A DNA stretch of 37,462 bases from Deltaproteobacteria bacterium (GTDB taxonomy: Bacteria; Myxococcota_A; UBA9042; CAIXZC01), in contig VGRX01000011.1 in assembly GCA_016875215.1 (NCBI GenBank), positions 1-37,462 on the forward strand, in the 5' to 3' direction. The translations under genes were made by a program, and so were the position numbers. Shown in pieces: positions 1,166 through 37,462 of the stretch. How positions within the stretch are numbered: position 1 is the first letter of the stretch; every line of letters begins with the position of its first letter. The notes under the pieces were generated by a model. The model had not been told where the DNA came from and made no database searches. It saw only the letters and a program-made list of their open reading frames with translations.

Positions 1166-1584
1166 GCGAGCCCCGCTCCGGTGGTGGTGAAGGTCATCTT
1201 GCCGTGCTTGATACCGCGAGTGGAGACGAGCTTTTCGCCGAGCTTGCGGACTCGGCCGGCCTCCCCCTTGAGCACGAGCACCTCGAGGCAGTTGTGGTGG
1301 TCGAGGTGGACGTGCACGGTCGAGATGACCAGGTCGTGGTGGTCATGCTGGACCTCGGTGAGGCGACGGGGCAGCTCGAGCTCGTGGTGGTCGTAGACCA
1401 GCGAGACGGTGCCGGCCACGAGGGTTTCCTCCGCAGCCCATTCCTGCTTGATCAGGCGCTCCCGGATCAGGTCACGGATTGCCTCGGAGCGATTGGTGTA
1501 GCCCTCCTCCTGGATCATGGTATCGAACTGATCGAGCAGCTTGGGGTCGAGCGAGACCCCGAAACGAACTACCTGGTCAGTCAT
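1162..1584 (-). CDS. nikR: NikR-type nickel-responsive ribbon-helix-helix regulator
   Basis: C-terminal 140 aa of the ORF-track entry 1162..2280, from [25 protein letters not shown]-terminus plus [17 protein letters not shown], which holds the NikR His/Cys nickel ligands. ATG at 1584. Confidence 0.9.
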
Positions 1585-1652
1585 TGGCAGACCTCCTGCC
1601 GGGGGTGTCCTCCGAGAAGTTCTGTGCTCTTCATCCTTCCCTCCTCGCCCCG

Positions 1653-14800: not shown

Positions 14801-15331
14801 ACAGAAGGCCCCCAGGCCGGGGTACAGGATGCAGACGTTCTGCACGTAGGACATGCTGCAGTCGGAGCTCTCGCCGCAGGGGACGCACAGATGGCTGCGC
14901 TGCGAGATGCACAGCGCGACCGGATCAGGACCCAGGAGGTAGGTCATCTTGCACAGCCAGCCGTCCGGGCACTCCTCGATGCAGAAGTCGGTACACACCA
15001 GGTTGCCCATGTGCTCGACGCACACGCCGGAGATGCAGTCCGCCCCGCTTTCGCACGGATCACCGAAGCAGCCTGGTCCCCGGCAAGCGGAGGAGTGCTC
15101 GCCAGCCAGGTCCGGGACATCGACCGGAGTCGAGGTTTCGAAGCGGCCCCCCGGATCCGGAGTCGCATCCGTGCGGGCTGCCGTTTCCGCCACGTCAGCG
15201 ATCGCCACGTCCGGAAGCTCCAGGAGCACCGTGGTCCCGCCCGAGCACGCGGCAAGAACCGCAGCGCAGGCAGGTCCGAAGCACGCAGCGGGAACCACCC
15301 GAAGCCAAGAAGACAGTGGCGTTTCCTTCAT
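11852..15331 (-). CDS. Giant Cys-rich lipoprotein with tandem CTDC-type repeats and DUF4215-like motif
   Basis: MKETPLSSWLRVVPAACFGPACAAVLAACSGG; about 15 units of CxDGNxCTxDxCxxxxGC...PCDDxxxCTxxDxCxxGxC; CGNSIVEAGEQCDDGNNKGGDGCSATC near the C-terminus. GAGG upstream of ATG 15331. Confidence 0.8.
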   Translation of the reverse strand: MKETPLSSWLRVVPAACFGPACAAVLAACSGGTTVLLELPDVAIADVAETAARTDATPDPGGRFETSTPVDVPDLAGEHSSACRGPGCFGDPCESGADCISGVCVEHMGNLVCTDFCIEECPDGWLCKMTYLLGPDPVALCISQRSHLCVPCGESSDCSMSYVQNVCILYPGLGAFCGASCDSEHPCPDGYLCQDAMSTEGTVTKQCVAADGECDCTDWAIKLAMGTACEQVSEFGTCTGRRVCTQEGLAPCDAGIPKAETCNGLDDDCDEDYDEGSCDDGNSCTDDLCNPEKGCEHAPLDATPCDDSDKCTTGDMCDEGTCSGSAVTCNDGNPCTDDLCDAVSGCAFPNNKMPCDDDDPCTLADQCQEGTCTPGPKVTCNDGNPCTKDLCDADKGCLYQPVDGPCDDLNPCTTGDFCSLGKCTFKALDDCNDGNLCTTDACDPTQGCTHVPNALPCDDSSLCTLGDKCAGGECQPGKALACGDGNPCTDDSCNPLLGCMHVNNTASCDDLDPCTQEDVCASGSCVGSGAVGCDDGNPCSDDFCVPMAGCSHQANTAPCNDGSVCTVADQCKGGLCIPGAALTCDDGNICTKDSCDKAKGCQFLPADGPCDDANACTQDDHCAQSKCVSLSPVQCDDKNSCTTDICLPDGGCKSVPNQAACDDGNLCTTGDKCSGGKCVPGIPVQCDDGNVCTLDSCDAGICKHAPAQGACDDSNLCTKGDSCANGVCAPGLAVNCDDDNICSTDFCDPAKGCVHLHNTAPCDDGDVCTLSDKCANGVCKPASSLKCDDANPCTDDSCNPAQGCVFSPNAAQCNDQNACTTGDACTAGACVGKALVDCNDGNPCTVDSCVPATGCKHLPLDIPCDDGNACTNGDACVNGTCTPGPALACDDFNACTEDACDPKSGCTHTNRPDGTACDDGSKCTLTDQCASGKCTGSNPPDCNDGNPCTSDTCEPGIGCVNTPVQNGTLCNDLDACTQTDQCAAGKCVGSNPPDCNDNKPCTTDSCDKTKGCVHAPIAPCCGNSIVEAGEQCDDGNNKGGDGCSATCQNESPCPVGTAYVHNYCWVKAIAWEETHSAACARIGKPQTPYSVNVPWDNTVLTQVAAAWGFTSIGKYECCAHAMWCNNGTKQCGTHNFGSPFENYQKYGDSNWWPVYTCVP
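12290..14510 (-). repeat. Tandem coding repeat of about 150 bp period (about 14.5 two-part CTDC units)
   Basis: Protein units recur, e.g. CNDGNPCTDDLCDAVSGCAFPNNKMPCDDDDPCTLADQCQEGTCTPGPKVT; nucleotide motif ttgccgtcgttgca/ttgccgtcgtcgca recurs. Confidence 0.8.
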
Positions 15332-15516
15332 GAAGATCCTCACTGGTTCGAAGTCGAAAGCCCGTCCCGAGCCTCTCCGCCCGGGCCGCGTGGAGGCTAC
15401 TTCCGCACAAGGGCCCTGTCAACCTGCACAAACCGTTTCCGCACGGACCGTTCGTCGACTTCTTCCCCTCGCGTTGGATATCAACTAGACTACAGATCAG
15501 CCGAAGGAGGGGGGGA

Positions 15517-23203: not shown

Positions 23204-25471
23204 ATGCGCAGAACAGACCGCACGGCCGTAGCGTTTCTTTCCGCCTTGGCTCTGCTGAGTTCGATGCTGTTCGTTGCCGCGTCGTGCTCTGGCGGATCAG
23301 CGGGAAGCCCACCGGATTCGACTTCTGAGCTGCCTTCGGCCATGGACGGCCAGTGCATGGACTCTGCCTGCGGTGACGCAGTCCCAGGTACGGACCTGCC
23401 CGGTGACGTTTCCGTCGACTCGGCAGGCGAGGTGGGAGCGGACGGCATGACGACGGCAGACGCCGATGAGGCGGACGCAGCGGCTCCCGGCTGCGAGGAC
23501 CCGCTGGCCGGCATGGACCTGGCCTATGCCGGCACCGACTCGCTCGAGCCGCCCGATCCTGGTATCGAGGCCTTTCTTGCCGAGGTGGACGACGCCTTCG
23601 CGTTGGCAGCGCTCTCCGACCCGCCGGTAGCGCTTTCGCGCCAGGACTTCCCGGTCTACGACTTCAAGCCCGAGGGATCGCCGAAGGGGCGCCTGGCCTG
23701 GGAGTACCGGGTGCGCCACGGACATTTCGACAACCCTGGCTACCTGAAGGGGCTTCAGGCGCAGCTCGAGCAGGCCGGCGGCGATACAGCGGTGCTGCTT
23801 TCATTCCTGTCCGACAAGGTCGATGCCTATGTCGAACCCGGTTCCGTGGAGCCTCTGCTTGCGAGGGCCGATGAGCTGGCCGCTCAGCCCGAAGCCTTGA
23901 GCTGTGCTCTTCTTTCACTCTCCGAGGCGGCCGTTTCGCTTCCGCCGGAGTGGGAAGCGCTGCCGGCCGACATGCAGGAACAGATTGCCCGGTTTCTGTT
24001 CGCCGCTCGCATCTCCCGGGCGCTGCAGGAGCAGGCCATGGCCGGATGTGAGGCTCTGATCCCCATCGACGAGTCTCTGTACGGCAAGGCGCTGACCCCG
24101 ACATTCGATGCCCTGGCTTCGGCCGACGGGCTCGAGGCCTGCGGGAACCAGGTGGACTTCCGGCAGCTCTTCCGGGGAGCCCAGGTGCTGACCTCAGCGG
24201 CCGAGACGCTGGCCGACCAGGCCGAGGGGTGGGAGACGGAATCCAAGCTCGTGCTCGACACGGGGTTGGGGCGGGTCGTGATTGCTCCCGCCGGCAAGAA
24301 CATGCACAAGGGCAAGGACGCGGACTACCTGCTCATCCTGGATCTCGGGGGAGATGATACCTACCTCGACGGGTTGGCCACGAGTCGCCCGACCCTCCCG
24401 CTTGCCGTGGTGATCGACATGGCAGGCAACGACCTGTACACGACTCAGGGGGCCGGACCTGCGTTCGCAGCGGGTTTCCTCGGATACGGGATCCTGTTGG
24501 ATCGGAGCGGGGACGATACCTACTCGGCCCGGTACGACAGTGTCGCTGCGGCCTGCCTCGGTGTGGCCGTGCTGAAGGACGAGTCAGGGGTCGACTTCTA
24601 CGATTCCGTGGATGGTGCGCAGGCATCCGCGCACCTGGGGGCAGCGCTGCTTCTCGACATGGCGGGGGACGACCACTACTACGCGTTCCGGATGGCCCAG
24701 GGAATGGGGGCCTACCGGGGGACCGGCCTGCTGCTCGACCGCAGCGGGGACGATTTCTTCGAGGCCGAGGACGACGAGGTGATCTATCCGGCCGCGCAGA
24801 ACCCGAACTACAACGCCAACATGTCTCAGGGGGCCGGCTTCGGGTTCCGGAATGATGTCGTGCCTTTCACCGACACCTATTGCGGCGGAATCGGGATGCT
24901 GGCCGATCTGGTGGGGGCCGACGTGTACTCGGGGGGCATCTTCTCGCAGGCCGTCGGATACTGGTTCGGAGTCGGCTTCCTGATCGATTCGGAGGGGGAC
25001 GACTCGTACAGCGGCGTCTGGTACAACCAGGGGGCGGCAGCGCATTTCGCCGGCGGCGCTCACCTGGATTCCGCCGGAAACGACACGTACTACTGTGTCC
25101 AGGACCAGTGCATGGGAGAAGGACGGGACTACTCCATCGGCACGCTCATCGAGCTTGGCGGCAACGACGAATACTACGCCAAGGGGGGCCGCAACATCGG
25201 CTCCGGCGACCTGTTCGGCAGCGGCGTCCTGTGGGACGCGGGCGGCAAGGACTCCTACAAGGACGATACGCCGTGGGCCATCGGCTTCGTGACGACCGAT
25301 ACCTATGTCGAGAACTCCTTCACGTTCGGTCTCTTCCTCGATACCGGCGGCGCCCCGGATAGCTACACGCTCCCCTCGAACCACGCTGCGGATTCCACCT
25401 TCTGGACCCAGCTCGGCAACGGCAACGACGGCCAGTACGAAAACGTGATTGCCGTGGGCCGGGACAAGTAG
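23204..25471 (+). CDS. Predicted lipoprotein with GDDxY-type repeats (possible beta-helix), unknown function
   Basis: AGGAGGAGG RBS; MRRTDRTAVAFLSALALLSSMLFVAASCSGG; about 11 copies of DxxGxDxY. Confidence 0.75.
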   Translation: MRRTDRTAVAFLSALALLSSMLFVAASCSGGSAGSPPDSTSELPSAMDGQCMDSACGDAVPGTDLPGDVSVDSAGEVGADGMTTADADEADAAAPGCEDPLAGMDLAYAGTDSLEPPDPGIEAFLAEVDDAFALAALSDPPVALSRQDFPVYDFKPEGSPKGRLAWEYRVRHGHFDNPGYLKGLQAQLEQAGGDTAVLLSFLSDKVDAYVEPGSVEPLLARADELAAQPEALSCALLSLSEAAVSLPPEWEALPADMQEQIARFLFAARISRALQEQAMAGCEALIPIDESLYGKALTPTFDALASADGLEACGNQVDFRQLFRGAQVLTSAAETLADQAEGWETESKLVLDTGLGRVVIAPAGKNMHKGKDADYLLILDLGGDDTYLDGLATSRPTLPLAVVIDMAGNDLYTTQGAGPAFAAGFLGYGILLDRSGDDTYSARYDSVAAACLGVAVLKDESGVDFYDSVDGAQASAHLGAALLLDMAGDDHYYAFRMAQGMGAYRGTGLLLDRSGDDFFEAEDDEVIYPAAQNPNYNANMSQGAGFGFRNDVVPFTDTYCGGIGMLADLVGADVYSGGIFSQAVGYWFGVGFLIDSEGDDSYSGVWYNQGAAAHFAGGAHLDSAGNDTYYCVQDQCMGEGRDYSIGTLIELGGNDEYYAKGGRNIGSGDLFGSGVLWDAGGKDSYKDDTPWAIGFVTTDTYVENSFTFGLFLDTGGAPDSYTLPSNHAADSTFWTQLGNGNDGQYENVIAVGRDK
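24343..25265 (+). repeat. GDDxY degenerate protein-level repeat array
   Basis: GGDDTY, AGNDLY, SGDDTY, SGVDFY, AGDDHY, SGDDFF, VGADVY, EGDDSY, AGNDTY, GGNDEY, GGKDSY. Confidence 0.75.
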
Positions 25472-25475
25472 GGCA

Positions 25476-25973
25476 TCACCCCGGCGCAATCGTGACGAGT
25501 TGCCGGATGAGAACGATGGCCTTGTCCACCGCCGCAATCACGGGAGCAGACATTCCGGGCTCGACATGCTCCGGGACGTGTGCGGTCTGGCAGGCGACCA
25601 CGCGGACGTCGATGCCGGCCTGCTCGCGCATCTCGTGGAGCATGTTGGTGGTGGGGAACTGGTGGAAGGAGAAATCGGGCAGCTTGATCTTCGGCATGGC
25701 GGAAATGTCCATCTCGAAGACCTCGCCCGGTTGTCGCCCTTCCAGAGTCACGGCATCGACGATGATCACCATCCGGGGGCGTTTCCTTGCCACCGTGATG
25801 TTGAACAGGATGTCCCGGACGCTGGTACCGCAATCCTCCGCATAGGCATGGTCCGGAAGGACCCCGGGGACCGAGAGCCGGTCCGCGACTTCCGGACCGA
25901 AGGCATCGTCCCCGAAAAGGACGTTGCCGCACCCCAGGATCAGAACCTCCTTGGTTTCGATCTCACGAAACAT
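25476..25973 (-). CDS. [NiFe] hydrogenase maturation protease
   Basis: ILGCGNVLFGDDAFGPEVADRL is the HyaD/HycI/FrhD-type signature; directly downstream of the large subunit gene on the same strand. Confidence 0.9.
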   Translation of the reverse strand: MFREIETKEVLILGCGNVLFGDDAFGPEVADRLSVPGVLPDHAYAEDCGTSVRDILFNITVARKRPRMVIIVDAVTLEGRQPGEVFEMDISAMPKIKLPDFSFHQFPTTNMLHEMREQAGIDVRVVACQTAHVPEHVEPGMSAPVIAAVDKAIVLIRQLVTIAPG

Positions 25974-26152
25974 GTACGGGCACCTCTCTGTGGTATCGCC
26001 CCTTCCCGTGTTCGGACAGACGAAGGCGGCCGCAGGACGAGAGTAGCGCGCCTGCGAGACGCGAGCAGGAAGCGACTGTGGCGTACTTCCCGTAGGCCGC
26101 AGAAAGCGACGCAGCGATGAAGCGACGTAGGCGTGTCACTATGGGCCTGCGG

Positions 26153-27601
26153 CTAGAAATTCCGGATCGTGTCGACGTGTTCACCCGTGCTGTCCACGAT
26201 TTCGGCCTCGATTGCAAGACCGCCATCCAGGCGGTGCGTGGCGCAGGACAGTCAGGGGTCGTAGGCGCGCACCGCCATCTCGACCTTGTTGAGCAGCCCC
26301 TGGTTCACCACGCCTCCGTGGATGAGGGCCTTGGCCGCTGCATTGACCGACATGTTGATGGGCGCCTGGTTGTGGGTGGAGCCCACGATCAGGTTCGCGT
26401 TGGTGATGAACCCTTCCCCGTCGCCGGTGTAGTCGTGGATGAGGGTTCCGCGCGGAGCCTCGACGCAACCCACACCGCGACCGGCCTTGGGGGTGACCTG
26501 GGCCCGGACGTCCTTGGAGAGGATGGCCGGGTCCTGGGCGAGCTGGAGGGCCATCTCGCAGTTGGCAACGAGCTCGATGAGCCGTGCCCAGTGGTAGAGC
26601 AGCGTGAACTGGGCGGGGCGGCCGAACGCTGCCCGGAACTCCTCGAGCTCCTTCTGGGCCAGCGGGGTGGGCATGCGGTCGCACACGTTGATTCGTGCGA
26701 GGCAATTGGCCCGGTAGATGCCCTTGGGGGCAGCGAGGTCCATGGAGAAGCCCTCGCCCCACTTCTTGGCATAGGGCATCTTCACGTAGGACCAGCCCTC
26801 GACGTGCTCTTCGAGGTAGTCGGAGTACTGTTCGTAGGTGAAGTCGTCGTAGCTGCCGTCCCGCTTCATGAGGCGGAGCTTCCCGTCGTAGATGTCCCAG
26901 GTGCCGTCCGCAGTCACCGTTCCGAGGAAGCCGGAATCGAAGTTGCCGAGGATCTTGACCGTGTCGAGGTACTTCGGGAACACGTTCTCCTTGGCGAACT
27001 TGATGGTGAACTGAGCGAACTCGAGCTGCTCCTTGGTTTCCTCGATGATCCGCTGCTGGATGGCGGCGGCCAGCGGGGTGGAGAAGCCGCCGGTGACTGC
27101 CGCCACCGGGTGGATCACCTTGCCCAGCCAGTCCTCGAGCAGCATGGCTCCCTTCTGGCGCAGGTGGACGACCTTGCGGGCCAGGTCGGGGGCGGCGCCG
27201 ACGATGCCGATGACGTTCCGGACCGACGGGTCGGCGTCGGGGCCGATGACGAAGTCGGGGGCTGCGAGGAAGTAGAAGTGCAGCAGCTTGTCCGGGATCC
27301 AGGCCAGGTGCTGTGCCATCCGCCGCAGCTTGACGGCTGTGGGCGGAAGCTCCACGCCGAACACCTTGTCGGTGGCCTTGACCGAGGCCAGGTGGTGGTT
27401 CCACGGGCAGATGCCGCAGATCCGGTTGACGATGCGGGGCATCTCCTCGACGGGCCGGCCTTCCGCAAACTTCTCGAACCCGCGGAGGGCCATGACGTGA
27501 ACGCGGGTATCGTTCACTTCCCCGGCGTCATCGAGCTGGATGACCACGCGGGCGTGCCCTTCGATTCGCGTGACGGGCTGTATCTGGATTGTCTTTCCCA
27601 T
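26153..27601 (-). CDS. Group-3 (Mvh/Vhu-like) [NiFeSe] hydrogenase large subunit, selenoprotein with Sec at TGA 26252-26254
   Basis: L1 motif RICGICPWNHH; readthrough of TGA gives AYDP-U-LSCATHRLDGGLAIEAEIVDSTGEHVDTIRNF then TAG (26153-26155); 482 aa. The ORF track stops at 26252 (449 aa). Confidence 0.88.
26219..26235 (-). promoter_or_regulatory. Candidate bacterial SECIS hairpin
   Basis: On the mRNA strand ACCGCC-UGGAU-GGCGGU: perfect 6-bp stem, 5-nt loop with G at loop position 2, stem starting 16 nt after UGA. Confidence 0.75.
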
Positions 27602-27616
27602 GTCTTCACCTCCCTC

Positions 27617-28582
27617 CTAGCGAGGTCCGGGCATGCCGGGACGCTGAGGCAGCGGCCGGAGCTTGTTGTGCGCACCGATGAACCGATTGAGGATCAGTCT
27701 CCGGTCGGGGACGCTCTGGGGGTTGATCCCCACCGAGGTGAGGGCGCCCATCATGTCCACGAGCGGGTTGGACGTCTTCTTGATCGGGCCGAAGCAGCCG
27801 CGGCACGGCATGCGAGCATCGATGCAGCGCGGGTTGCCTTCCTTGCCTGCGCATCCGGCCAGGGTGACCGGGCCGAGGCAGAGGAAGCCCTGCTCCATGA
27901 GGCAGCGCATCTTCTGGATCGGCTCTTCCGCTTCGAAGGTGGCGTTGGTCAGTGAGCGCTTGATGTTGGCGCCACCCGCTGCCTTCTTCTCACGGATGAC
28001 CTGACAGGTGTCGCACACGCTGCGCTCGGGCAGCTTGAACTCGGTCTTCCCATCGAGAAGGGCGAGGATCGCTGCCGCGATCCAGTCCGGGTGCGGGGGG
28101 CAGCCGGGCAGGTAGATGTCCACCTTGAGCCCGGGGATCTCGTCCAGGGCGTAGACCCGGTCGAGCAGCTTGGGCACCACCTGGGTCGGCGTTTCGGCCG
28201 GCGGGGTGGTGATGCTCCCCTTGAACACCTTGTTGAGCACGTCCGCGTTGTCCCAAGCATTGGCCTGGGCCGGGATGCCTCCGTTGGTTGCGCAGGTTCC
28301 CAGGGCAATCAGGAACTTGCACTTCTTTCGGAGCTCCAGCGCCACCTCCTTCTGCTCTTCGTTGCGGACTCCACCAGAGATGATCCCGACCTCGCATTCC
28401 GGAAGCGTGAGGTGGGTTCCGTCCCCGTTCGGACCGAAGTACTTGCTGTCCACGAGGGCCGGGATGTGCACCAACTGCAGCTTGGCCGGAATCAGGTCGA
28501 GGATCACGTCTCCCAGGTTCAGAATGGAGATCTCGCAGCCAGAGCACGAGCTGAGCCATTCTGAAACGACTCTCACCGCCAT
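27617..28582 (-). CDS. Group-3 [NiFe] hydrogenase small subunit (MvhG/VhuG-like)
   Basis: MAVRVVSEWLSSCSGCEISILNLG, GTCATNGGIPA, LPGCPPHPDWI, CLGPVTLAGC, PCRGCFGP; GGAGG-6-ATG at 28582. Confidence 0.9.
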   Translation of the reverse strand: MAVRVVSEWLSSCSGCEISILNLGDVILDLIPAKLQLVHIPALVDSKYFGPNGDGTHLTLPECEVGIISGGVRNEEQKEVALELRKKCKFLIALGTCATNGGIPAQANAWDNADVLNKVFKGSITTPPAETPTQVVPKLLDRVYALDEIPGLKVDIYLPGCPPHPDWIAAAILALLDGKTEFKLPERSVCDTCQVIREKKAAGGANIKRSLTNATFEAEEPIQKMRCLMEQGFLCLGPVTLAGCAGKEGNPRCIDARMPCRGCFGPIKKTSNPLVDMMGALTSVGINPQSVPDRRLILNRFIGAHNKLRPLPQRPGMPGPR

Positions 28583-28637
28583 GTTCCACCTCCATGAGAG
28601 AACGGACCGTTCGTCGACCGACACTTCAAACCGCGCC

Positions 28638-28666
28638 ATTAGAGCAAAGGCAACGCGAGGCGTCAA
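28638..28666 (-). promoter_or_regulatory. Candidate sigma70-type promoter TTGACG-N17-TCTAAT for the hydrogenase genes
   Basis: 5/6 matches in both hexamers with exact 17-nt spacing, upstream of the small-subunit ATG. Confidence 0.6.
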
Positions 28667-28823
28667 GGGCAATTTCCTACGAGGGGAGTGGAATCCCCAA
28701 GCCGGAGTTGGCTTGACGGAAAAACTAGTAATTCGATGGGATTTTAGCATGCTGGTGCGGCGCGGCATCGCGGGTTGTCAGCCGGGAACGGAGACCCTCG
28801 GTGTTATCCAAGAAAAAGTCGTG

Positions 28824-29372
28824 CTACTGCTTCAGGCCGAGGCTCGATTGTTTCTCCAGGACCGTCTCAGCCACGAAAGTCAGGACAGCGCCGTCCCGGA
28901 AGCAGCCTGTTCCAAGCTCTTCCTCCAGCGCTGCGCTTTCCAGGAGGTACGCGGGCCCGTCCCCCACGAGCAGGACCTCCAGCCGGAAGTCGGCCTCGTG
29001 TGCGAGCACGGCGGCCACGGTCTGCCCCAGGTCCCCCAGCGGCTGCCGGTCCGGGTGCGAGAGGCAGAAGCGGGCCTCGACGCGAGTCCCCTTCCCGGGC
29101 ACGGACTCCAGCCGCGCCGAGCCGCCTGCCTGCTCGGCCGCCTGCTTCAGCATCGGGAGTCCCAGCCCGAAGCGTCGCTCGGTCCGGGTGGTCACGAACG
29201 GGTCGAACACCCGCTCCGCCAGGTCGGCGGGCATGCCTCTGCCATCGTCCTCCACCACGATCGACAGGGTGTCCGCTGCCCGGTCCATCGCAACTTCCAG
29301 GCGGATGACGCGTGCGCCTGCGCGTATGCAGTTCTCGATGATGTCCAGCAGGTGAAGGGAGATTTCATCCAT
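28824..29372 (-). CDS. HATPase_c-type ATP-binding protein (histidine kinase-like ATPase)
   Basis: VVEDDGRGMPADLAERVFDPFVTTR...GLGLPMLKQAAEQAGGSARLESVPGKGTRVEARF. Confidence 0.85.
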   Translation of the reverse strand: MDEISLHLLDIIENCIRAGARVIRLEVAMDRAADTLSIVVEDDGRGMPADLAERVFDPFVTTRTERRFGLGLPMLKQAAEQAGGSARLESVPGKGTRVEARFCLSHPDRQPLGDLGQTVAAVLAHEADFRLEVLLVGDGPAYLLESAALEEELGTGCFRDGAVLTFVAETVLEKQSSLGLKQ

Positions 29373-30114
29373 GGAGATACTCCGGCGTGACGGCGCCGAT
29401 GCGCAATGCCCGGGCCAGCGTGTCGAAAGACGGGGGGCCTCCTTCCACGACCGTGAAACGACGGCCGATTTCGTGCAGGAGATGCGCGTCGGAGGTAGCG
29501 ATCACAGGTCTTCCCCTGGGCAGCGCGGCTGCCACGTTCTCAACGGCCGCAGCGGATGTCGCCTCTGCCGCATCGAAGTCCAGGCTCGGTGGGACGAAGC
29601 CGAGCTGGCCCAGAATCCCGAATGCCTCCCGGTCCGCATGGGCCAGGATGACCAGCCCGTCGAGGCAGCGGATCCGGCGCACCGCCTCCTCGAGCGAAAA
29701 CGATGTTGCGGCCAGCAACAGCCTCTTCTCGAAGCCGTCCACGCCGCCGTCCTCATCGGCCAGCACCTGGAGTCCGAATGCGTCGGGGTCGTTCAGGGCC
29801 GTGAGCGTATCGAGGCATGCGGCCTGGAGCTGCGCTGCGGCCTGGAGCGTGGGCAGAAGGGCCACCAGGTGGACTTCTTCCACGGTGCAGACCTCGATCC
29901 CCGGCAGCACGACCAGCCGGCTGCCGGCGGCCGCCTCCAGCGCGGCAGCGGCTCGTGTGACCGAGGCAGCGTTTCCCGCGTGGTTGTGGTCACAGACCGC
30001 GATGAGGTCGAGTCCGACCTGGAGTGCCTGCCGGACGATCTCCCGAGGGTGCATGTCCAGGTCGCCGCAGGGGGAGAGGCAGGTGTGGATGTGCGGGTCA
30101 GCGCGGTAGGACAT
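29365..30114 (-). CDS. PHP-domain phosphoesterase
   Basis: RADPHIHTCLSPCGDLDMHP, ICDHNH-like AVCDHNHAGN, VLPGIEVCT, VILAHADRE, IATSDAH motifs; overlaps the HATPase start by 8 nt. Confidence 0.85.
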   Translation of the reverse strand: MSYRADPHIHTCLSPCGDLDMHPREIVRQALQVGLDLIAVCDHNHAGNAASVTRAAAALEAAAGSRLVVLPGIEVCTVEEVHLVALLPTLQAAAQLQAACLDTLTALNDPDAFGLQVLADEDGGVDGFEKRLLLAATSFSLEEAVRRIRCLDGLVILAHADREAFGILGQLGFVPPSLDFDAAEATSAAAVENVAAALPRGRPVIATSDAHLLHEIGRRFTVVEGGPPSFDTLARALRIGAVTPEYLHG

Positions 30115-30211
30115 GGGAGCCGGCGGTCAGGAGGTGGACTGCAACATGGAATTCGGGACGTCTCAATCCAGACCCTCCCCTCGGTTCCTTTCCGATCCGC
30201 GGCCGCCCCCC

Positions 30212-31897
30212 CTATTTCCCCACTCCCAACTCGTACAGCCTTCCTGCGACCTGGTACGCGGTGAGCGCCGTGGTGAGCAGCGGCAGCCCTTCCTCTTCGG
30301 CCTTTGCCAGCGTGTCCGCTGCCGGCTGCCGGCCGTTGACCAGGACGATTCCGGCCAGGTTGTTGAGCTTGGCGACTGCGACGACGTTGAGATGCGTCTG
30401 GAGGGTGATCCAGAGGATTCCGTCGGCCGCGTGTGCGATGACGTCGGACAGCAGGTCGGAGACGTAGCATCCGGCAACCTCGACGTCGAGGTGCTGCCGG
30501 CCGCTGACCGGGGACAGGGACAGGGACGAGGCGACTTCGGCAAGCTTCATGGTGTTCTCCTTACGTGCGGTTCGAGTTCCACGAGCGGCAAGGACCAGGC
30601 AGTCTCCCACGCTTGCGAGAGAACGCACGACGTCATCCGCGAGCTCGGCGCAGGTCGGGGCGCCGCAGGCGCCGCAGTCGATTCCCGGGAGCGAGGAGAG
30701 CAGCTCCTCCTTCTCGCGTGCCAGCAGGAGGGAGCGCCTGAAATCGGAATCGAGGGGAGGCAGCGGGGAAGCGACGAGGTCGTGCTTGCGCTGCAGCTCT
30801 CCCGAGCGGGCGATGGTGCGCAGCGAGGGGAAGTCGGCGCGCTCCTCCGGGGGGGGCAGCTTGCGGAGGTACTCGATGGCCTTGCTGCGGGCCGGGTAGG
30901 GGTTGTCCACCACGAGGCTGCCGCCGACGCATCCTTCGGGGCAGGCCATGCATTCGACGAGGTCGACGTGCTGGAGGCGTCCCTTCTCGATCTCGTCGAG
31001 GACGCGGCGGACGCTGGGGAGCTGGGCGACGGGAAGATAGTCGGTGTGGTCGGCCTTGCGTTTGCGCCCCCGCCCGGAGCGGGAATCGAGGGCATAGACC
31101 ATGCGGCGGAGGTTCCGGGACATGCCGCCGAGGAAGGCCCAGCCGAGGTCCGCGGATGACGAGCCTTCCCGGGTGAGCTCGCCTCTGAGGCGCATGTGCG
31201 ACAGTGCCGTGAGCACTTCGTGGTAGATCTCGTTGATGGGCAGCACGGCATGCATTGCCCCCCCGTCCGGGCTCTCGTGGATCATGGTATCCACGATCTT
31301 CGAGGGGCAGGGGGAGATGTAGACGATGCCGATGCGGTCCGGTGCGAGGCCGGTCTGCCGCACGAGGCGCTCCCGCACCCAGCGGGCGGCCAGCTCTCTC
31401 GGGGGGCCGCGCGGGACGAGGTTGCCGAGCAGGTCCGGGTAGAGGGTCTGGATGAGCCGGGTGACCGTCGGGCAGTGGGAGGTGATGAGCGGCCCTTCGA
31501 ACCTCCTCGACAGGACGAGCTCGGCCAGCGAGTACAGGTACGCGAGGCAGGCCTGCTCGAGCGACACCACCTCGTCGAAGCCGAGACGGCGCAGCGCCTC
31601 CGCCACGTCGCTGGGGCCCACGTCGGGTTGGAACTGGACGAGCAGGGGGGAGGAGGGGATGGCCACGATCTTCTCGAAGCGGGCGAGGTCGACGACCTGC
31701 GGCGTGCGCGACGTGATGGCATTCTCCCGGCAGGAGCGGATACACTCGCCGCAGTCGATGCACTTCTCCTGGATGACGAGCGGGTATCCCTTCTTCATGC
31801 GGATGGAGCGGGCGGTGCAGGCACGCATGCACGTCATGCAGCCGATGCAGCGGTCGTGGTTGAACCGCAGGCTGCGGTAGGTTTCGACCGCGCTCAT
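30212..31897 (-). CDS. [4Fe-4S]/iron-only-hydrogenase-C-terminal-like protein fused in frame to a DRTGG domain
   Basis: CIGCMTCMRAC and CIDCGECIRSC clusters; FeFe-hydrogenase-like VYISPCPSK, CPEGCVGG; FeS-domain GIDCGACGAPTCAELADDV; DRTGG-like C-terminus starting MKLAEVASS. Confidence 0.8.
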   Translation of the reverse strand: MSAVETYRSLRFNHDRCIGCMTCMRACTARSIRMKKGYPLVIQEKCIDCGECIRSCRENAITSRTPQVVDLARFEKIVAIPSSPLLVQFQPDVGPSDVAEALRRLGFDEVVSLEQACLAYLYSLAELVLSRRFEGPLITSHCPTVTRLIQTLYPDLLGNLVPRGPPRELAARWVRERLVRQTGLAPDRIGIVYISPCPSKIVDTMIHESPDGGAMHAVLPINEIYHEVLTALSHMRLRGELTREGSSSADLGWAFLGGMSRNLRRMVYALDSRSGRGRKRKADHTDYLPVAQLPSVRRVLDEIEKGRLQHVDLVECMACPEGCVGGSLVVDNPYPARSKAIEYLRKLPPPEERADFPSLRTIARSGELQRKHDLVASPLPPLDSDFRRSLLLAREKEELLSSLPGIDCGACGAPTCAELADDVVRSLASVGDCLVLAARGTRTARKENTMKLAEVASSLSLSPVSGRQHLDVEVAGCYVSDLLSDVIAHAADGILWITLQTHLNVVAVAKLNNLAGIVLVNGRQPAADTLAKAEEEGLPLLTTALTAYQVAGRLYELGVGK

Positions 31898-32343
31898 GAG
31901 GCCTGCTCCGGCGGGATCAGGATGACGGCCTCGAGCCGGGTTCCGTGGCCCACGGTCGAGCGGACGTCCAGGCTGTCGCTGTTGCGCTGGATGTTGGGCA
32001 GGCCCATGCCCGCGCCGAATCCCATCTCGCGGATCTCCTGGGTGGCGGTGGAGTATCCGACCTGCATGGCAAGGCCGATGTCGGGGATTCCGGGGCCGCG
32101 GTCGTCGAACGTCAGCACGATCCGGCGCAGGTCCACGAGCAGGGTCGCGGTGCAGGAGCTGGCATAGATGACGACGTTCATCTCGGCTTCGTAGGATACG
32201 ATGGAGGCCCTCCGGACCAGGGGGGCCGGCAGGCCGAGGCTGCGAAGGATGGCCTTGACCTCGGTGGAGACGGAGCCTGCGTTGGCGAAGTCCTTCCCTT
32301 CGAACCGGAACTGGCGCACGAAGAGTGGTTCGTTGGAGGTCAC
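31894..32343 (-). CDS. RsbW-like anti-sigma/serine-kinase-type ATPase
   Basis: GTG start; YEAEMNVVIYA, DDRGPGIPDIGLAMQVGYST, GFGAGMGLPNIQRNSD motifs. Confidence 0.8.
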   Translation of the reverse strand: MTSNEPLFVRQFRFEGKDFANAGSVSTEVKAILRSLGLPAPLVRRASIVSYEAEMNVVIYASSCTATLLVDLRRIVLTFDDRGPGIPDIGLAMQVGYSTATQEIREMGFGAGMGLPNIQRNSDSLDVRSTVGHGTRLEAVILIPPEQAS

Positions 32344-32726
32344 GTCAGCTTCTCCCTCCGGTGCGCATCGGCTCCGGAGAGGCCGACGGAGCCGAGCAGG
32401 CAGCAGACGTCGAAGGTGCTCAAGGGGGTTGCCAGGAGGACGACCCCGAGAACCCGGGCCTTGTCCAGGGCATCCGGGCCCGGACGCTTTCCCCGGACGT
32501 AGACGATGCCGGCCGCGTCCGCGATGTGAGCCGTCACGACCGATTGCGGGGAAACGAGCCCGGTGACGAGGAGCGCCCCCGCCCCTGCGCTGGCGAGCAC
32601 GTCGCTCATCCGGTCCGAGGCGAACACCTGGGCGACGGTCCTGCCGGAAAGCAGCTCGCTGCCCACGAGAACCTCGAACGAGCAGCGCCGGGCAACGTCA
32701 TCGAGCGTCATCTTCCCCGCTTCCAT
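32340..32726 (-). CDS. DRTGG-domain protein
   Basis: GRTVAQVFASDRMSDVLASAGAGALLVTGL...GIVYVRGKRPG; similar to the C-terminus of the 30212-31897 ORF. Confidence 0.75.
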   Translation of the reverse strand: MEAGKMTLDDVARRCSFEVLVGSELLSGRTVAQVFASDRMSDVLASAGAGALLVTGLVSPQSVVTAHIADAAGIVYVRGKRPGPDALDKARVLGVVLLATPLSTFDVCCLLGSVGLSGADAHRREKLT

Positions 32727-32790
32727 GGGCCCCCTATGCGAGAGGAACCAATCCTATCATGACGCTGGCGCACAGGGAATCATTTTTCGT

Positions 32791-32818
32791 TTGACAGCGT
32801 TGCGCAGCGCGTTGTAAG
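32791..32818 (+). promoter_or_regulatory. Candidate promoter TTGACA-N16-TGTAAG for the HdrC-HdrB-Nuo arm
   Basis: Perfect -35, 4/6 -10, in the divergent intergenic region between the two arms. Confidence 0.4.
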
Positions 32819-32912
32819 GGGGGGACTTGGCGTCGGCCCGTCGGGTGGGGTTGCGGTTTCGGGGAACGGGGACGGATGACGGGGCGACCTGTCAGTGGTC
32901 GAGGGGGTGAAC

Positions 32913-33584
32913 ATGGGTCACTTGATATCCGGCCGCAGGTCTGTCCCTGCGTTCCGCACCGAGGTCGAGGCCCGGGCGGGATGCGGCGTGCTTGCCTGCT
33001 TCCAGTGCGGCAAGTGCGGGGCCGGGTGCCCGCTCCAGGAGCACCTGGACTACTCGCCGTCGCAGATCATCCATCTGATCCGATTGGGACAGGAGGAGAC
33101 GGTCCTCGCCAGCAAAGCCATCTGGCTGTGCGCGTCGTGCGAGACCTGTACCACCCGCTGCCCGCAAGGGGTGGATATCGCTCGGGTGATGGATGCCGCC
33201 CGGTCGCTGGCATTCGACCGGAGAGTTCCCTCCGCGGTACCCTCCGTGCCGTCGTTCTACAAGGCAACCCGGGCCAACCTGATGAAGTTCGGCCGGATGT
33301 TCGAGGTGTGGCTCCTGGCCAGCCTCAAGCTGCGTACCGGCGACATCACCAAGGACATGGACCTGGGGCGGAAGATGATGGCGAAGCGCAAGCTGAATCT
33401 CTTCCCGACCTGGAACCGTGTCTGGGAGACCCGGGCCATCTTCAAGCGCGTCGCCAGGATCGAGAAGGAGCGCGCCGCGGAGCGGGCCGCAGATACCCAG
33501 TCCGGCAGCGGATCGGCCGGCGGCGCCGCTGCCTCCCCTCGTGAGGGAGGCCCCGGCAACGCGAGCGGAGGGGGCAACTCATGA
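32913..33584 (+). CDS. hdrC: HdrC-like heterodisulfide reductase subunit (two [4Fe-4S])
   Basis: CFQCGKCGAGCP and CASCETCTTRCP; RBS GAGGGGG before ATG 32913; low-complexity C-terminal tail. Confidence 0.88.
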   Translation: MGHLISGRRSVPAFRTEVEARAGCGVLACFQCGKCGAGCPLQEHLDYSPSQIIHLIRLGQEETVLASKAIWLCASCETCTTRCPQGVDIARVMDAARSLAFDRRVPSAVPSVPSFYKATRANLMKFGRMFEVWLLASLKLRTGDITKDMDLGRKMMAKRKLNLFPTWNRVWETRAIFKRVARIEKERAAERAADTQSGSGSAGGAAASPREGGPGNASGGGNS

Positions 33585-34450
33585 AATTCGCCTATTTCCC
33601 CGGCTGTTCCCTGCATTCCACGTCGTCCGAGTATGACAAGTCGTTCCGGGCGGTCTGCGCCGCGCTCGGAATCGAGCTCGAGGAGCCGAAGAAGTGGATC
33701 TGCTGCGGCACCACGCCGGCTCACGCGACCTCGCGGCTGCTGGGCGCCGCACTTCCGGTCAAGAACCTCAGGATCATGGAGGAGCAGGGCATGACCGAGG
33801 TCGTGGTACCCTGTGCTGCCTGTTTCTCCCGGTTCAAGTGCGCGGACCACGACATCGGGAAGGACCCGCAGCTTGCTGCCGACGTGGCCCAGGCCATCGG
33901 GGCCGAGTACGGGCGGACCGTGAAGATCCGGCATCCGCTGGAGCTGTTCCTGCGGGAGGACGTGCGGGCGATCCTCCGCCAGAAGGTGGCCAGGCCGCTT
34001 GCCGGACTGAAGGTGGCGTGCTACTACGGCTGCCTGCTGACCCGTCCGCCCGAGGTGACCCAGTTCGACGATACCGAGTATCCCATGTCCATGGACCTGC
34101 TGCTTCGTGACCTGGGGGCAGAGACGATCGACTGGGCGTACAAGGTGGAATGCTGCGGTGCGTCATTGTCGCTGACCAACTCCGATATCATCCTCGATCT
34201 CACGCGCAAGATCATCCTGGATGCGAAGGCCCGGGGAGCCTTGGCGCTTGTCGTGGCGTGCCCGCTGTGCCACGTGAACCTGGATTCGCGGCAGTTCCAG
34301 GCAGAGGAGAAGTACCAGACCAGGCTCGAGATGCCGGTTCTCTTCTTTTCCCAGCTCATCGGGCTGGCACTGGGGCTCTCGGGCAAGGAACTCGGCACGG
34401 ACAAGCACCTGACGGATCCGTCGGCCATCCTGTCCGCGGTCCAGGCATAG
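33581..34450 (+). CDS. hdrB: HdrB-like heterodisulfide reductase subunit (two CCG domains)
   Basis: YFPGCSLHSTSSEYD, ICCGTT, PCAACFSRFK, CYYGCLLTRP, ECCGASLSLTN, CPLCHVNLDSRQ; ATGA overlap with hdrC. Confidence 0.92.
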   Translation: MKFAYFPGCSLHSTSSEYDKSFRAVCAALGIELEEPKKWICCGTTPAHATSRLLGAALPVKNLRIMEEQGMTEVVVPCAACFSRFKCADHDIGKDPQLAADVAQAIGAEYGRTVKIRHPLELFLREDVRAILRQKVARPLAGLKVACYYGCLLTRPPEVTQFDDTEYPMSMDLLLRDLGAETIDWAYKVECCGASLSLTNSDIILDLTRKIILDAKARGALALVVACPLCHVNLDSRQFQAEEKYQTRLEMPVLFFSQLIGLALGLSGKELGTDKHLTDPSAILSAVQA

Positions 34451-34461
34451 GGAGGAGAGCC

Positions 34462-34845
34462 ATGCCCAAGCTGTCGATCGAGGATCTCAAGAAGATGCGG
34501 GAGGATGCTGCACGCAAGCGGATCCTGCGGGACGGGGAATCGAGGGTCCGGATCACGATCCACATGGGGACGTGCGGGATCATGTCCGGGGCCCGGGATG
34601 TCCTCAAGGCGGTGCTGTCCGAGGTGGAGGCATCGGACCTGAAGGATACCATCGTGACCACTTCGGGGTGTGCGGGGCTGTGCTCCCGGGAGCCGATGGC
34701 CACGGTGGAGATCGCAGGTCACGCTCCGGTGAAGTACGTGGACCTGACTGCAGAGAAGGTGGTCCGCATCGTGAAGGAGCATATCGCGGGCGGGACGGTG
34801 GTGCAGGAGCTCGCCCTGGCGGTGGGCAGCGAGATGACACGGTAG
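34462..34845 (+). CDS. Thioredoxin-like [2Fe-2S] ferredoxin
   Basis: HMGTCGIMSGARDVLKAV...TTSGCAGLCSREPMATVEI; GGAGGAG RBS. Confidence 0.8.
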   Translation: MPKLSIEDLKKMREDAARKRILRDGESRVRITIHMGTCGIMSGARDVLKAVLSEVEASDLKDTIVTTSGCAGLCSREPMATVEIAGHAPVKYVDLTAEKVVRIVKEHIAGGTVVQELALAVGSEMTR

Positions 34846-34863: not shown

Positions 34864-35352
34864 ATGCAGAAGATTCTGCAGATCGTGGAGAAGTGGGGGG
34901 GCCGCAAGGACTGCCTCATCGAGATGCTGCACGACGTGCAGACGGAGTACAACCATCTGCCCGAGAGCGCGCTGCGGGTCCTGTCCGCCCGGCTCTCCGT
35001 GCCGCTCACGCAGATCACGCACGTGGCGACGTTCTATGCGTCGTTCAGCCTGGTGCCGAAGGGGGATACCCGTCTGCGGGTCTGCATGGGGACTGCGTGC
35101 TACCAGAAGGGGGGCAACCGGATCCTCGAGGCGCTGGAGCGGGAGCTGAAGGTGAAGTCGGGGGAGGTGACCCCGGACGGCGAATTCAGCCTCGAATCGG
35201 CCCGCTGCATCGGCTGCTGCGGCATCGCCCCCGCGCTGGTCGTCGACGATGACGACGTGTTCGGGAAGGTGAACCCGACGAAGATGAAGAAGTTCGTGGC
35301 GGACATCAAGAAGAAGAAGCAGGCCGGGAAGCAGAGCGCGGCGGAGGCGTGA
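34864..35352 (+). CDS. NuoE-like NAD(P)H-linked [2Fe-2S] subunit
   Basis: VCMGTACYQKGGNRIL...ARCIGCCGIAPALVVDDDVFGKV. Confidence 0.9.
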   Translation: MQKILQIVEKWGGRKDCLIEMLHDVQTEYNHLPESALRVLSARLSVPLTQITHVATFYASFSLVPKGDTRLRVCMGTACYQKGGNRILEALERELKVKSGEVTPDGEFSLESARCIGCCGIAPALVVDDDDVFGKVNPTKMKKFVADIKKKKQAGKQSAAEA

Positions 35353-35353
35353 C

Positions 35354-37168
35354 ATGGAACCGAGACTGTCGGTGCTGATCTGCAGCGGTACGGGTTGCGC
35401 CTCGAACAAGTCCATGGAAGTCATGGATGCGCTTCGCAAGGAGATTGCGACCCGTGGGCTGGAGCAGGAGGTCGAGGTGGTTCAGACCGGCTGCCAGGGG
35501 TTCTGTGCGGTCGGTCCCATCGTGTATGTCCAGCCGGATGACGTCTTCTACCAGCAGGTCGGGGTCAAGGATGTCCCGCGGCTGGTGGAGGAGCACTTCC
35601 TGAAGGGGCGGCCCTACAAGGACAAGTTGTACGTGCCCCCGATGGGCGGGATGCCGATCCCGAAGCTGATGGACATCCCGTTCTTCAAGAGCCAGGTGCT
35701 GGTGGCATTGCGGAACAAGGGGCTCATCGACCCGGAGAAGATCGAGGACTACATCGCCCGGGACGGCTACCAGGCTCTGGCCAGGGTGCTGACCGAGATG
35801 AAGCCGGAGCAGGTCATCGAGTGCGTGACGAAGTCGGGGCTTCGCGGCCGGGGCGGCGGTGGTTTCCCCACAGGGGTGAAGTGGGCCAGTGCGCGCAAGG
35901 CCTCCGGGGACATCAAGTACGTCCTGTGCAACGGCGACGAGGGGGACCCCGGCGCGTTCATGGACCGCAGCATCATGGAGGGTGACCCCCATTCGGTCCT
36001 GGAAGGGATGTGCATCGCGGCCTTTGCGGTGGGGTCGAGCCAGGGGTACGTGTACGTACGCAAGGAGTATCCGCTGGCCGTGCAGCGCATCGAGGTTGCG
36101 ATCGAGCAGGCGCGGGAGTTCGGGTTGCTCGGGAAGGACATCCTGGGGGCCGGGTTCGATTTCGACGTCGAGGTACGGCGCGGGGCCGGTGCGTTCGTGT
36201 GCGGGGAGTCCACGGCCCTGATGGCCTCCATCGAAGGGAACCCTGGCGAGCCGCGGGCCAAGTACATCCACACGGTCGACGCGGGCCTGTGGAACCGGCC
36301 GTCCTGTCTCAACAACGTGGAGACGTTCGCCAACGTCCCGATGATCCTCCAGCGCGGGTGGGAGTGGTTCAGCTCCATCGGAACGGGTGATGTCAGCCAG
36401 GATCCGTGGGGTGGCAGCAAGGGAACCAAGGTCTTCTCCATTGCGGGTGACGTCAACAACACGGGCCTGATCGAGGTCCCGATGGGGACGACGCTGCGGG
36501 AGATCGTCTTCGACATCGCGGGCGGGTTGCCCGAGGGGAAGCGGTTCAAGGCGGTCCAGACCGGCGGGCCGTCGGGGGGATTCCTCCCGGAGAGCCTGCT
36601 GAACCTCCCGGTGGACTTCGACCGGCTGGTGGAAGCGGGCTCGATGATGGGGTCGGGCGGCATGGTCGTGCTGGGGCACGACAAGTGCATGGTCGACTCG
36701 GCCAAGTTCTTCATCGACTTCACCGCGGACGAATCGTGCGGGAAGTGCACGCCGTGCCGCATCGGGAGCAAGATCATGCTCCAGTCCCTCGAGAAGATCA
36801 GCGAGGGGAAGGCCACGGAGGAGGACGTGGAGCAGCTCGAGCGCGTGGCCCATGAGGTGGCCAACCTCTCGCTCTGCGGCCTGGGCAAGTCGGCGCCCAA
36901 CCCGGTGCTGACCGCGCTGCGCTACTTCCGGGACGAGGTGATGGCGCACGTGCACGAGAAGCGCTGCCCTGCCGGAGAGTGCAAGGCGCTGATCACCTAC
37001 TCGATCGATGCCGGGAAGTGCACCGGTTGCACGCTCTGTGCGAAGAACTGTCCGACCGACTGCATCACCGGCGAGCGGAAGGCGGCGCATGCCATCGTGA
37101 CGGACAGGTGCATCAAGTGCGGTTCGTGCAAGATCGTCTGCAACTTTGACGCGGTGGTGGTCCAATGA
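35354..37168 (+). CDS. NuoF-like flavoprotein subunit (FMN/NADH, FeS) with C-terminal 2x[4Fe-4S]
   Basis: LRGRGGGGFPTGVKW, CNGDEGDPGAFMDR, GAGAFVCGESTALM, ESCGKCTPCRIG, CTGCTLCAKNCP, CIKCGSCKIVC. Confidence 0.93.
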   Translation: MEPRLSVLICSGTGCASNKSMEVMDALRKEIATRGLEQEVEVVQTGCQGFCAVGPIVYVQPDDVFYQQVGVKDVPRLVEEHFLKGRPYKDKLYVPPMGGMPIPKLMDIPFFKSQVLVALRNKGLIDPEKIEDYIARDGYQALARVLTEMKPEQVIECVTKSGLRGRGGGGFPTGVKWASARKASGDIKYVLCNGDEGDPGAFMDRSIMEGDPHSVLEGMCIAAFAVGSSQGYVYVRKEYPLAVQRIEVAIEQAREFGLLGKDILGAGFDFDVEVRRGAGAFVCGESTALMASIEGNPGEPRAKYIHTVDAGLWNRPSCLNNVETFANVPMILQRGWEWFSSIGTGDVSQDPWGGSKGTKVFSIAGDVNNTGLIEVPMGTTLREIVFDIAGGLPEGKRFKAVQTGGPSGGFLPESLLNLPVDFDRLVEAGSMMGSGGMVVLGHDKCMVDSAKFFIDFTADESCGKCTPCRIGSKIMLQSLEKISEGKATEEDVEQLERVAHEVANLSLCGLGKSAPNPVLTALRYFRDEVMAHVHEKRCPAGECKALITYSIDAGKCTGCTLCAKNCPTDCITGERKAAHAIVTDRCIKCGSCKIVCNFDAVVVQ

Positions 37169-37462
37169 GCGAACAGGTAGGCAAGACGGTGAAGATGACC
37201 ATCGACGGACGGGAGGGGGAGTTCCCGTCGGGCATGACCATCCTCGAGGCAGCCCGTCAGATGGGGATCCGGATCCCGACGCTCTGTTACAGCGAGGCGG
37301 TCAGCCAGTACGGCTCGTGCCGGCTGTGCGTGGTCGAGGTGAGCAAGCGGGGCCGCAAGCGCATGGTGATAGCGTGCATGCACCCGGTCGGCGATCTGGA
37401 GGTGCGGACAAGCACGCCGGAGATCCGGGATTCGCGCAGGACCATCGTGGAATTCCTGCCCC
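37165..37462 (+). CDS. NuoG/HydA/FDH-type N-terminal [2Fe-2S] ferredoxin domain, truncated by window end
   Basis: ATGA overlap with NuoF; MSEQVGKTVKMTIDGREGEFPSGMTILEAARQMGIRIPTLCYSEAVSQYGSCRLCVVEVSKRGRKRMVIACMHPV. Confidence 0.85.
   Translation, partial: MSEQVGKTVKMTIDGREGEFPSGMTILEAARQMGIRIPTLCYSEAVSQYGSCRLCVVEVSKRGRKRMVIACMHPVGDLEVRTSTPEIRDSRRTIVEFLP

Follow-up and report, generated by a model that had tools for sequence, protein, structure and literature searches.

A putative redox-signalling cassette of electron-bifurcating Bfu enzymes, with a predicted H-cluster-free relative of group D [FeFe] hydrogenases

The DNA analysed here, called the window throughout, is the whole of contig VGRX01000011.1 (C11; 37,462 nucleotides) of a deltaproteobacterium, and the system in question is a cassette of five genes on its minus strand (28824-32726), which reads toward the genes of a [NiFe] hydrogenase. 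In general, this five-gene set is presumed to be the hydrogen-sensing switch of iron-iron hydrogenases. The cassette genes are, in the order in which they are read:

32340..32726, minus strand: DRTGG-domain protein of 128 residues, first gene of the cassette (PF07085, E 9.7e-5, 22.6 bits, slightly below the cut-off of 25.2)
31894..32343, minus strand: RsbW/SpoIIAB-like ATPase of 149 residues (HATPase_c above cut-off)
30212..31897, minus strand: [FeFe]-hydrogenase-like (HydS/group D-like) iron-sulfur protein of 561 residues (Pfam, PDB comparison, residue counts in 82 homologues, AlphaFold and Foldseek)
29365..30114, minus strand: PHP-domain phosphoesterase-like protein of 249 residues (PHP_C above cut-off, PHP below)
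28824..29372, minus strand: HATPase_c protein of 182 residues (HATPase_c, 70 bits)

Both the open reading frames (ORFs) and the domains agree with the preliminary description, in which the genes had been given in the order DRTGG, RsbW-like, FeFe-like, PHP, HATPase, and its statement that a run of mostly overlapping genes leads toward the [NiFe] hydrogenase is borne out as well: the junctions are, in gene order, two overlaps of 4 nucleotides each, a gap of 97 nucleotides and an overlap of 8 nucleotides (three of four overlapping), and about 240 nucleotides separate the cassette from the small-subunit gene of the hydrogenase downstream. All five ORFs are intact, with their active-site motifs present. 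A homologue of the DRTGG gene sits before the RsbW-like gene in most of 81 related loci. In the RsbW-like protein, whose best NCBIfam match is anti-sigma F factor (TIGR01925), far below the family cut-off, the N, G1 and G2 box motifs are intact (EAEMN, DRGPGI, GAGMGL), and a Pfam search of the cassette proteins gave no match to STAS, the partner in RsbW-type partner switching. The PHP protein carries the metal-ligand motifs DPHIH, CDHN, GIEV and EVHLV, and the last protein the motifs DIIEN, DDGRG, GLGLP and GKGT, with no HisKA match in the Pfam search and no recognisable histidine phosphoacceptor domain. A promoter scan of positions 25400-33000 gave nothing above chance.

The 561-residue protein comprises, according to Pfam, two Fer4 domains, Fe_hyd_lg_C (84.7 bits, cut-off 22.1), FeS (PF04060) and a C-terminal DRTGG domain, which at the level of motifs corresponds to two N-terminal [4Fe-4S] motifs, an H-domain, a C-terminal Cx2Cx4Cx16C motif and the fused DRTGG part, with no PAS domain. 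Its AlphaFold model (pLDDT, the predicted local distance difference test, 83.5) is of high confidence for most of residues 10-440 and of low confidence in DRTGG, and it matches [FeFe] hydrogenases in Foldseek. Whether this protein keeps the H-cluster cysteines had been raised as a check, and it does: all four ligands of [4Fe-4S]H are present (C142, C197, C319 and C323). The proton-transfer cysteine (position 299) is replaced by His141, Ser195 stands at the Met353 position, and methionine is retained at position 497, which is variable across the whole family in the residue counts. The same domain architecture, minus DRTGG, has been described for the putative sensory hydrogenases of group D (M2e), including TamHydS, in which Met353 is replaced by Ser and Met497 by Leu (PMC8163306). 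The 561-residue protein appears to be a homologue of the group D (M2e, TamHydS-type) sensory [FeFe] hydrogenases. Most likely it binds as many as four [4Fe-4S] clusters and lacks the di-iron subsite.

The latter view is drawn from the relatives of the protein and from their maturases. A scan of 85,488 species genomes with a three-member alignment, together with genome searches, gave 81 further proteins, and the tree of the FeFe-like proteins splits, with a support of 100/99, into branches of 51 and 31, the larger holding every member found beside HydA and the smaller, which includes the window protein, never occurring beside it; the window protein and two others lie on long branches, and their exact placement is unsure. 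L045, a locus with both a NiFe hydrogenase and a formate dehydrogenase (Fdh), falls in the HydA-associated branch. HydG was found above cut-off in 16 of the 20 tested genomes of the HydA branch and in 3 of 31 of the other (Fisher p 4.6e-7), HydF in 16 of 20 and 4 of 31, and neither in any of the 12 NiFe-type genomes. The genome of the window, which is 94% complete, has no HydG and no HydF over the cut-off (HydE was not part of the search); HydF matches do occur in it but were rejected as maturases, all being far under the cut-off and typical of other GTPases. Since HydG and HydF are absent from this genome, the di-iron part of the H-cluster is unlikely to be present in the 561-residue protein. 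As a separate observation, neither HydG nor HydF exceeds the cut-off in the complete genome of Candidatus Fermentithermobacillus carboniphilus (L108, CP062796.1), in which part of the cassette occurs along with a HydA that looks intact (TSCSP).

In the non-HydA branch (31/31) no change occurs in any of the four [4Fe-4S]H cysteines or of the four cysteines of the C-terminal cluster, and the residues at positions 299, 353 and 497 do not separate the branches cleanly. The only clear difference is the second cysteine of the first N-terminal cluster (Cys20 equivalent), which the window protein keeps and for which 23 of the 31 proteins have Arg, His, Asp or Glu; in these a changed or [3Fe-4S] cluster is possible. 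A true H2 sensor, with a complete H-cluster as in TamHydS and with maturases that are missing from the assembly or replaced, would account for the retention of all cysteines and the lysine of the H-domain and for a serine in place of Met353, which group D shares (PMC8163306), but with HydG and HydF lacking from all 12 NiFe-type genomes as well as from a genome 94% complete, and with histidine at the proton-transfer position, we regard it as very improbable.

The genes on either side of the cassette, those of the hydrogenase downstream on the same strand and a second set on the plus strand, are the following:

27617..28582, minus strand: [NiFe] hydrogenase small subunit, MvhG/VhuG-like (NF045875 VhuG, E 8.7e-57)
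26153..27601, minus strand: predicted [NiFeSe] hydrogenase large subunit, MvhA/VhuA-like, 482 residues with selenocysteine (NF041785 VhuA, E 5e-135, 450 bits)
25476..25973, minus strand: hydrogenase maturation protease, HycI family (PF01750, 51 bits)
32895..33584, plus strand: HdrC-like protein (TIGR03290, E 2.5e-19)
33581..34450, plus strand: HdrB-like protein with two CCG domains (PF02754; TIGR03288, E 1.8e-49)
34462..34845, plus strand: [2Fe-2S] thioredoxin-like ferredoxin-type protein in the HndB position (kept between the NuoE and NuoF genes in relatives)
34864..35352, plus strand: BfuC (NuoE/HydC; NCBIfam HoxE/NuoE matches, below cut-offs)
35354..37168, plus strand: BfuB (NuoF/HydB; best PDB match 7t2r_B, E 3.6e-232)
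37165..37462, plus strand: 5' part of BfuA (HoxU-like; HoxU/HydA-N-terminal-like matches), running off the contig

An in-frame TGA (26252-26254) of the large-subunit gene, read as selenocysteine, gives DP-U-LSCATH, and because of this readthrough, the VhuA family match and a tRNA-Sec in the same genome (79 bits), the identity as a [NiFeSe] enzyme of the Mvh/Vhu type (group 3c) is well supported. The cysteine-type homologue in a related locus (L074) is likewise 482 residues long from stop to stop and 63% identical; the fold of the selenocysteine insertion sequence (SECIS) at the gene has a z of -0.94, below significance. A NikR-like nickel-responsive regulator sequence, judged by eye, lies inside a longer ORF at 1162-1600 (minus strand), and may be relevant to the nickel enzyme, which lies 25 kb from it.

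For the gene at 37165, of which the window holds 99 codons, it had been proposed that it could be a HydA, and this proposal does not survive: what is present is HoxU-like, its probable continuation ends without an H-domain, and no further match to Fe_hyd_lg_C was found. That continuation is contig C768 (locus L122, 1880 bp), which opens with the C-terminal half of a HoxU-like protein (130 residues, no H-domain) followed by HdrA; the halves on C11 and C768 align with intact BfuA proteins, leaving a gap of about 14 residues, and C768 probably continues C11, a join that we infer from this alignment. Since Fe_hyd_lg_C finds nothing but the 561-residue protein itself in the 94%-complete genome, there is no HydA in this assembly, in agreement with the earlier remark that no HydA catalytic subunit is visible. 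BfuB is best matched by subunit B of the bifurcating NiFe-hydrogenase HydABCSL (7t2r_B; PMC8880783), and with the NuoE-type BfuC and, given the inferred join, BfuA halves that have no H-domain, the subunits of a NiFe-type Bfu enzyme are found. The enzyme is probably, given the same join, a [NiFeSe] Mvh-type hydrogenase with HdrABC and BfuABC, and two kinds of bifurcation site are probable in one predicted complex. A probable Mvh-Hdr-Bfu enzyme, with HdrABC and an MvhADG-type [NiFe] hydrogenase joined to BfuBC, was seen also in six related loci (L055, L056, L068, L072, L103 and L115); in relatives HdrA is split, its C-part being fused to a HoxU-like BfuA.

Among the 81 relatives, the genes of the cassette are widely kept together (RsbW 79, PHP 70, DRTGG 66, HATPase 61, with NuoF in 58), and the whole set occurs in the same order in dozens of genomes. 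Many of the 81 contigs are short, and the neighbourhoods were assessed in the 39 loci whose flanks extend 5 kb or more upstream and 8 kb or more downstream. In 36 of these 39 the Bfu core (BfuB; HydB/NuoF) adjoins the cassette, so that the idea that the five families might equally often neighbour unrelated genes can be put aside. The partner of this core changes from group to group: an FeFe HydA in Clostridia, Coriobacteria and Bacteroidales, a NiFe hydrogenase of the Mvh-Hdr type in Aminicenantes, Ignavibacteria, Acidobacteria and others, a molybdopterin Fdh in Zixibacteria, Aminicenantes and relatives of the window organism, and elsewhere GcvH domains or a glutamate-synthase-like protein. 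Several NiFe-type operons run HdrC, HdrB, HdrA N-part, DRTGG, RsbW, FeFe-like, PHP, HATPase, NuoE, [2Fe-2S], NuoF, HoxU-HdrA fusion, MvhD, MvhG and MvhA, and so the window carries the members of a conserved gene set in rearranged form. The cassette could also be a relic of a lost FeFe-HydABC operon that lies by chance beside a NiFe hydrogenase, as the lack of HydA in this genome would allow, but the five ORFs are intact with their active-site motifs, the protein belongs to a separate branch, and the association recurs, with its order conserved, in Aminicenantes, Ignavibacteria, Acidobacteria and others; with the gene set conserved across phyla, relic or chance neighbourhood was rejected as extremely improbable.

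In two genomes of the phylum of the window (L034 and L035) the FeFe domain is lost, and DRTGG, RsbW-like, PHP and HATPase genes remain beside an Fdh-Bfu enzyme, the DRTGG part of the FeFe-like protein being retained at 56-57% identity; in L034, examined by Pfam, an RsbW-like ATPase and two CBS domains form one fused protein (8585-9514), and Rnf genes lie alongside. In other loci (L093, L087 and L104) the DRTGG, RsbW-like, FeFe-like and PHP genes form an isolated group, without a Bfu core up to 10 kb away. Glycine-cleavage H-protein-like domains occur in BfuA or its neighbours, with the same cassette, in L033 (2023-4291, genome G057), L081, L086 and L089, and no hydrogenase was seen near these GcvH-type Bfu clusters. 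That the 561-residue protein is a physical subunit of the bifurcating complex, which carries or gates electrons and is modified by the products of the other four genes, would fit its ligands for up to four clusters and the embedding of these genes between hdr and nuo genes in related operons; set against this, no homologue is named among the purified subunits of NiFe-HydABCSL (PMC8880783), and some loci have lost the FeFe-like domain or have the cassette apart from the core, so that we consider such a role improbable.

Taken together, we favour, with a probability of roughly 0.6, the reading that the cassette is a redox-signalling set serving electron-bifurcating Bfu (HydABC) enzymes, here the group 3c (Mvh-type) [NiFeSe] hydrogenase with HdrABC and BfuABC, and that it does so with an H-cluster-free homologue of group D. 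In its simplest form this means that the cassette belongs with the BfuBC core, whose substrates, NAD(H) and ferredoxin, are fixed, and not with the hydrogen-activating site. Because the cassette follows this NADH/ferredoxin core and not an FeFe site, the NiFe enzyme of the window would itself be of the HydABC type with a different catalytic part; the likeness to gene sets of trimeric [FeFe] hydrogenases, pointed out before, is supported with this refinement. The same distribution, and ATPases able to drive assembly, would suit a set of assembly factors that build or insert the flavin/iron-sulfur BfuBC core and have no part in signalling, the strongest of the rival explanations and in our estimate unlikely: RsbW/HATPase folds are typical of regulation, as are DRTGG and CBS domains, stand-alone cassettes exist, and to our knowledge some well-studied HydABC systems do without this cassette.

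As for the working of a redox-signalling set, redox sensing is the likeliest input because the iron-sulfur ligands are kept and the di-iron site is unavailable, and what is sensed is probably the redox state of the cell and not H2 itself. The cluster chain of the 561-residue protein could equilibrate with ferredoxin or with the enzyme and so read the low-potential redox state, while the fused DRTGG domain and the separate DRTGG protein might bind a small ligand, perhaps a nucleotide. Redox or ligand state would then alter how the RsbW-like kinase and the HATPase are bound. These two may act by phosphorylation or by sequestration on a target, either the enzyme or a regulator in trans, an effect that the PHP phosphoesterase would reverse or tune; the presence of kinase-type ATPases together with a phosphoesterase suggests phosphorylation as the output.

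Several observations weigh against redox signalling by an H-cluster-free protein. The cassette holds no transcription factor, STAS partner or known target. The genomes are mostly metagenome-assembled, which makes absences probabilistic, HydG does occur in three genomes of the non-HydA branch, and HydE lay outside the search. Lys358 contacts the di-iron site in hydrogenases, and had the non-HydA branch never possessed that site, one would not expect to find the equivalent lysine in 29 of its 31 members, as is the case. Three Clostridia-type loci of the long-flank subset carry the cassette without a nearby Bfu core. Finally, the C-terminal cluster of TamHydS does not respond to H2, which weakens a simple relay through it (PMC13104023).

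A wider proposal, which we put forward tentatively and hold at somewhat less than even odds, is that Bfu enzymes in general, whatever their third substrate (H2 at a NiFe site, formate, GcvH-linked or glutamate-synthase-like), use the H-cluster-free HydS branch and its DRTGG, kinase and PHP partners for redox signalling. The H2-sensing HydS would in that case be no more than the variant in which the di-iron site was gained or retained. Current understanding places H2 sensing by sensory [FeFe] hydrogenases at the H-cluster. Retaining the iron-sulfur scaffold and the signalling partners in genomes that do not assemble an H-cluster, a naturally occurring branch of this kind would set H2 sensing apart from signalling; the shared signal suggested by it, the redox state of the NADH/ferredoxin bifurcation core, becomes directly testable.

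Elsewhere in the window, a protein of 1163 residues (11852-15343, minus strand) has many cysteine-rich repeats of the CDDGNPCTDDxCD type and is probably secreted.

The open-access literature (many subscription papers lie outside it) yielded no account of the H-cluster-free branch, of the Mvh-Hdr-Bfu operon or of the cassette next to Bfu enzymes of the NiFe, Fdh or GcvH type, and a search of it for hydrogenases accompanied by a PHP/DRTGG cassette likewise gave no description. Already on record are group D genes upstream of bifurcating FeFe hydrogenases, with kinases in their neighbourhood, for example Cthe_0335 with Cthe_0340-0342 upstream of HydABC (PMC3561251, PMC8163306). The window resembles this HydS cassette in domain order, in the lost proton-transfer cysteine, in the serine at position 353, in its kinase-like neighbours and in the bifurcating enzyme nearby, but it differs in its partner, a predicted [NiFeSe]-Hdr-Bfu enzyme in place of an FeFe HydA or an FeFe HydABC neighbour, in the fused DRTGG and the methionine at 497, in a position outside the HydA branch of the tree, and in a genome that, with HydG and HydF absent and HydE outside the search, does not show di-iron synthesis of the HydEFG type. 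The 149-residue protein shares its ATP-binding motifs with the RsbW/SpoIIAB partner-switching kinases, whereas the cassette includes neither a STAS anti-anti-sigma factor nor a sigma factor and the NCBIfam scores are far below the family cut-offs. With the MvhADG-HdrABC complex of methanogens the window has in common MvhA/MvhG-like and HdrB/HdrC-like subunits, HdrA on C768 and, in relatives (L072), MvhD; in contrast to that complex, the set is bacterial and is joined to the NADH/ferredoxin BfuBC through a HoxU-like BfuA (a HoxU-HdrA fusion in relatives). The NiFe-HydABCSL (NiFe-Bfu) enzyme of Acetomicrobium mobile (7T2R; PMC8880783, PMC9304861) is similar in the best PDB match of BfuB, in a BfuA without an H-cluster, in its NiFe small and large subunits and in the accessory HisK gene of its operon, whereas the window has an Mvh-like large subunit with predicted selenocysteine, HdrBC and probably HdrA, and the full five-gene cassette.

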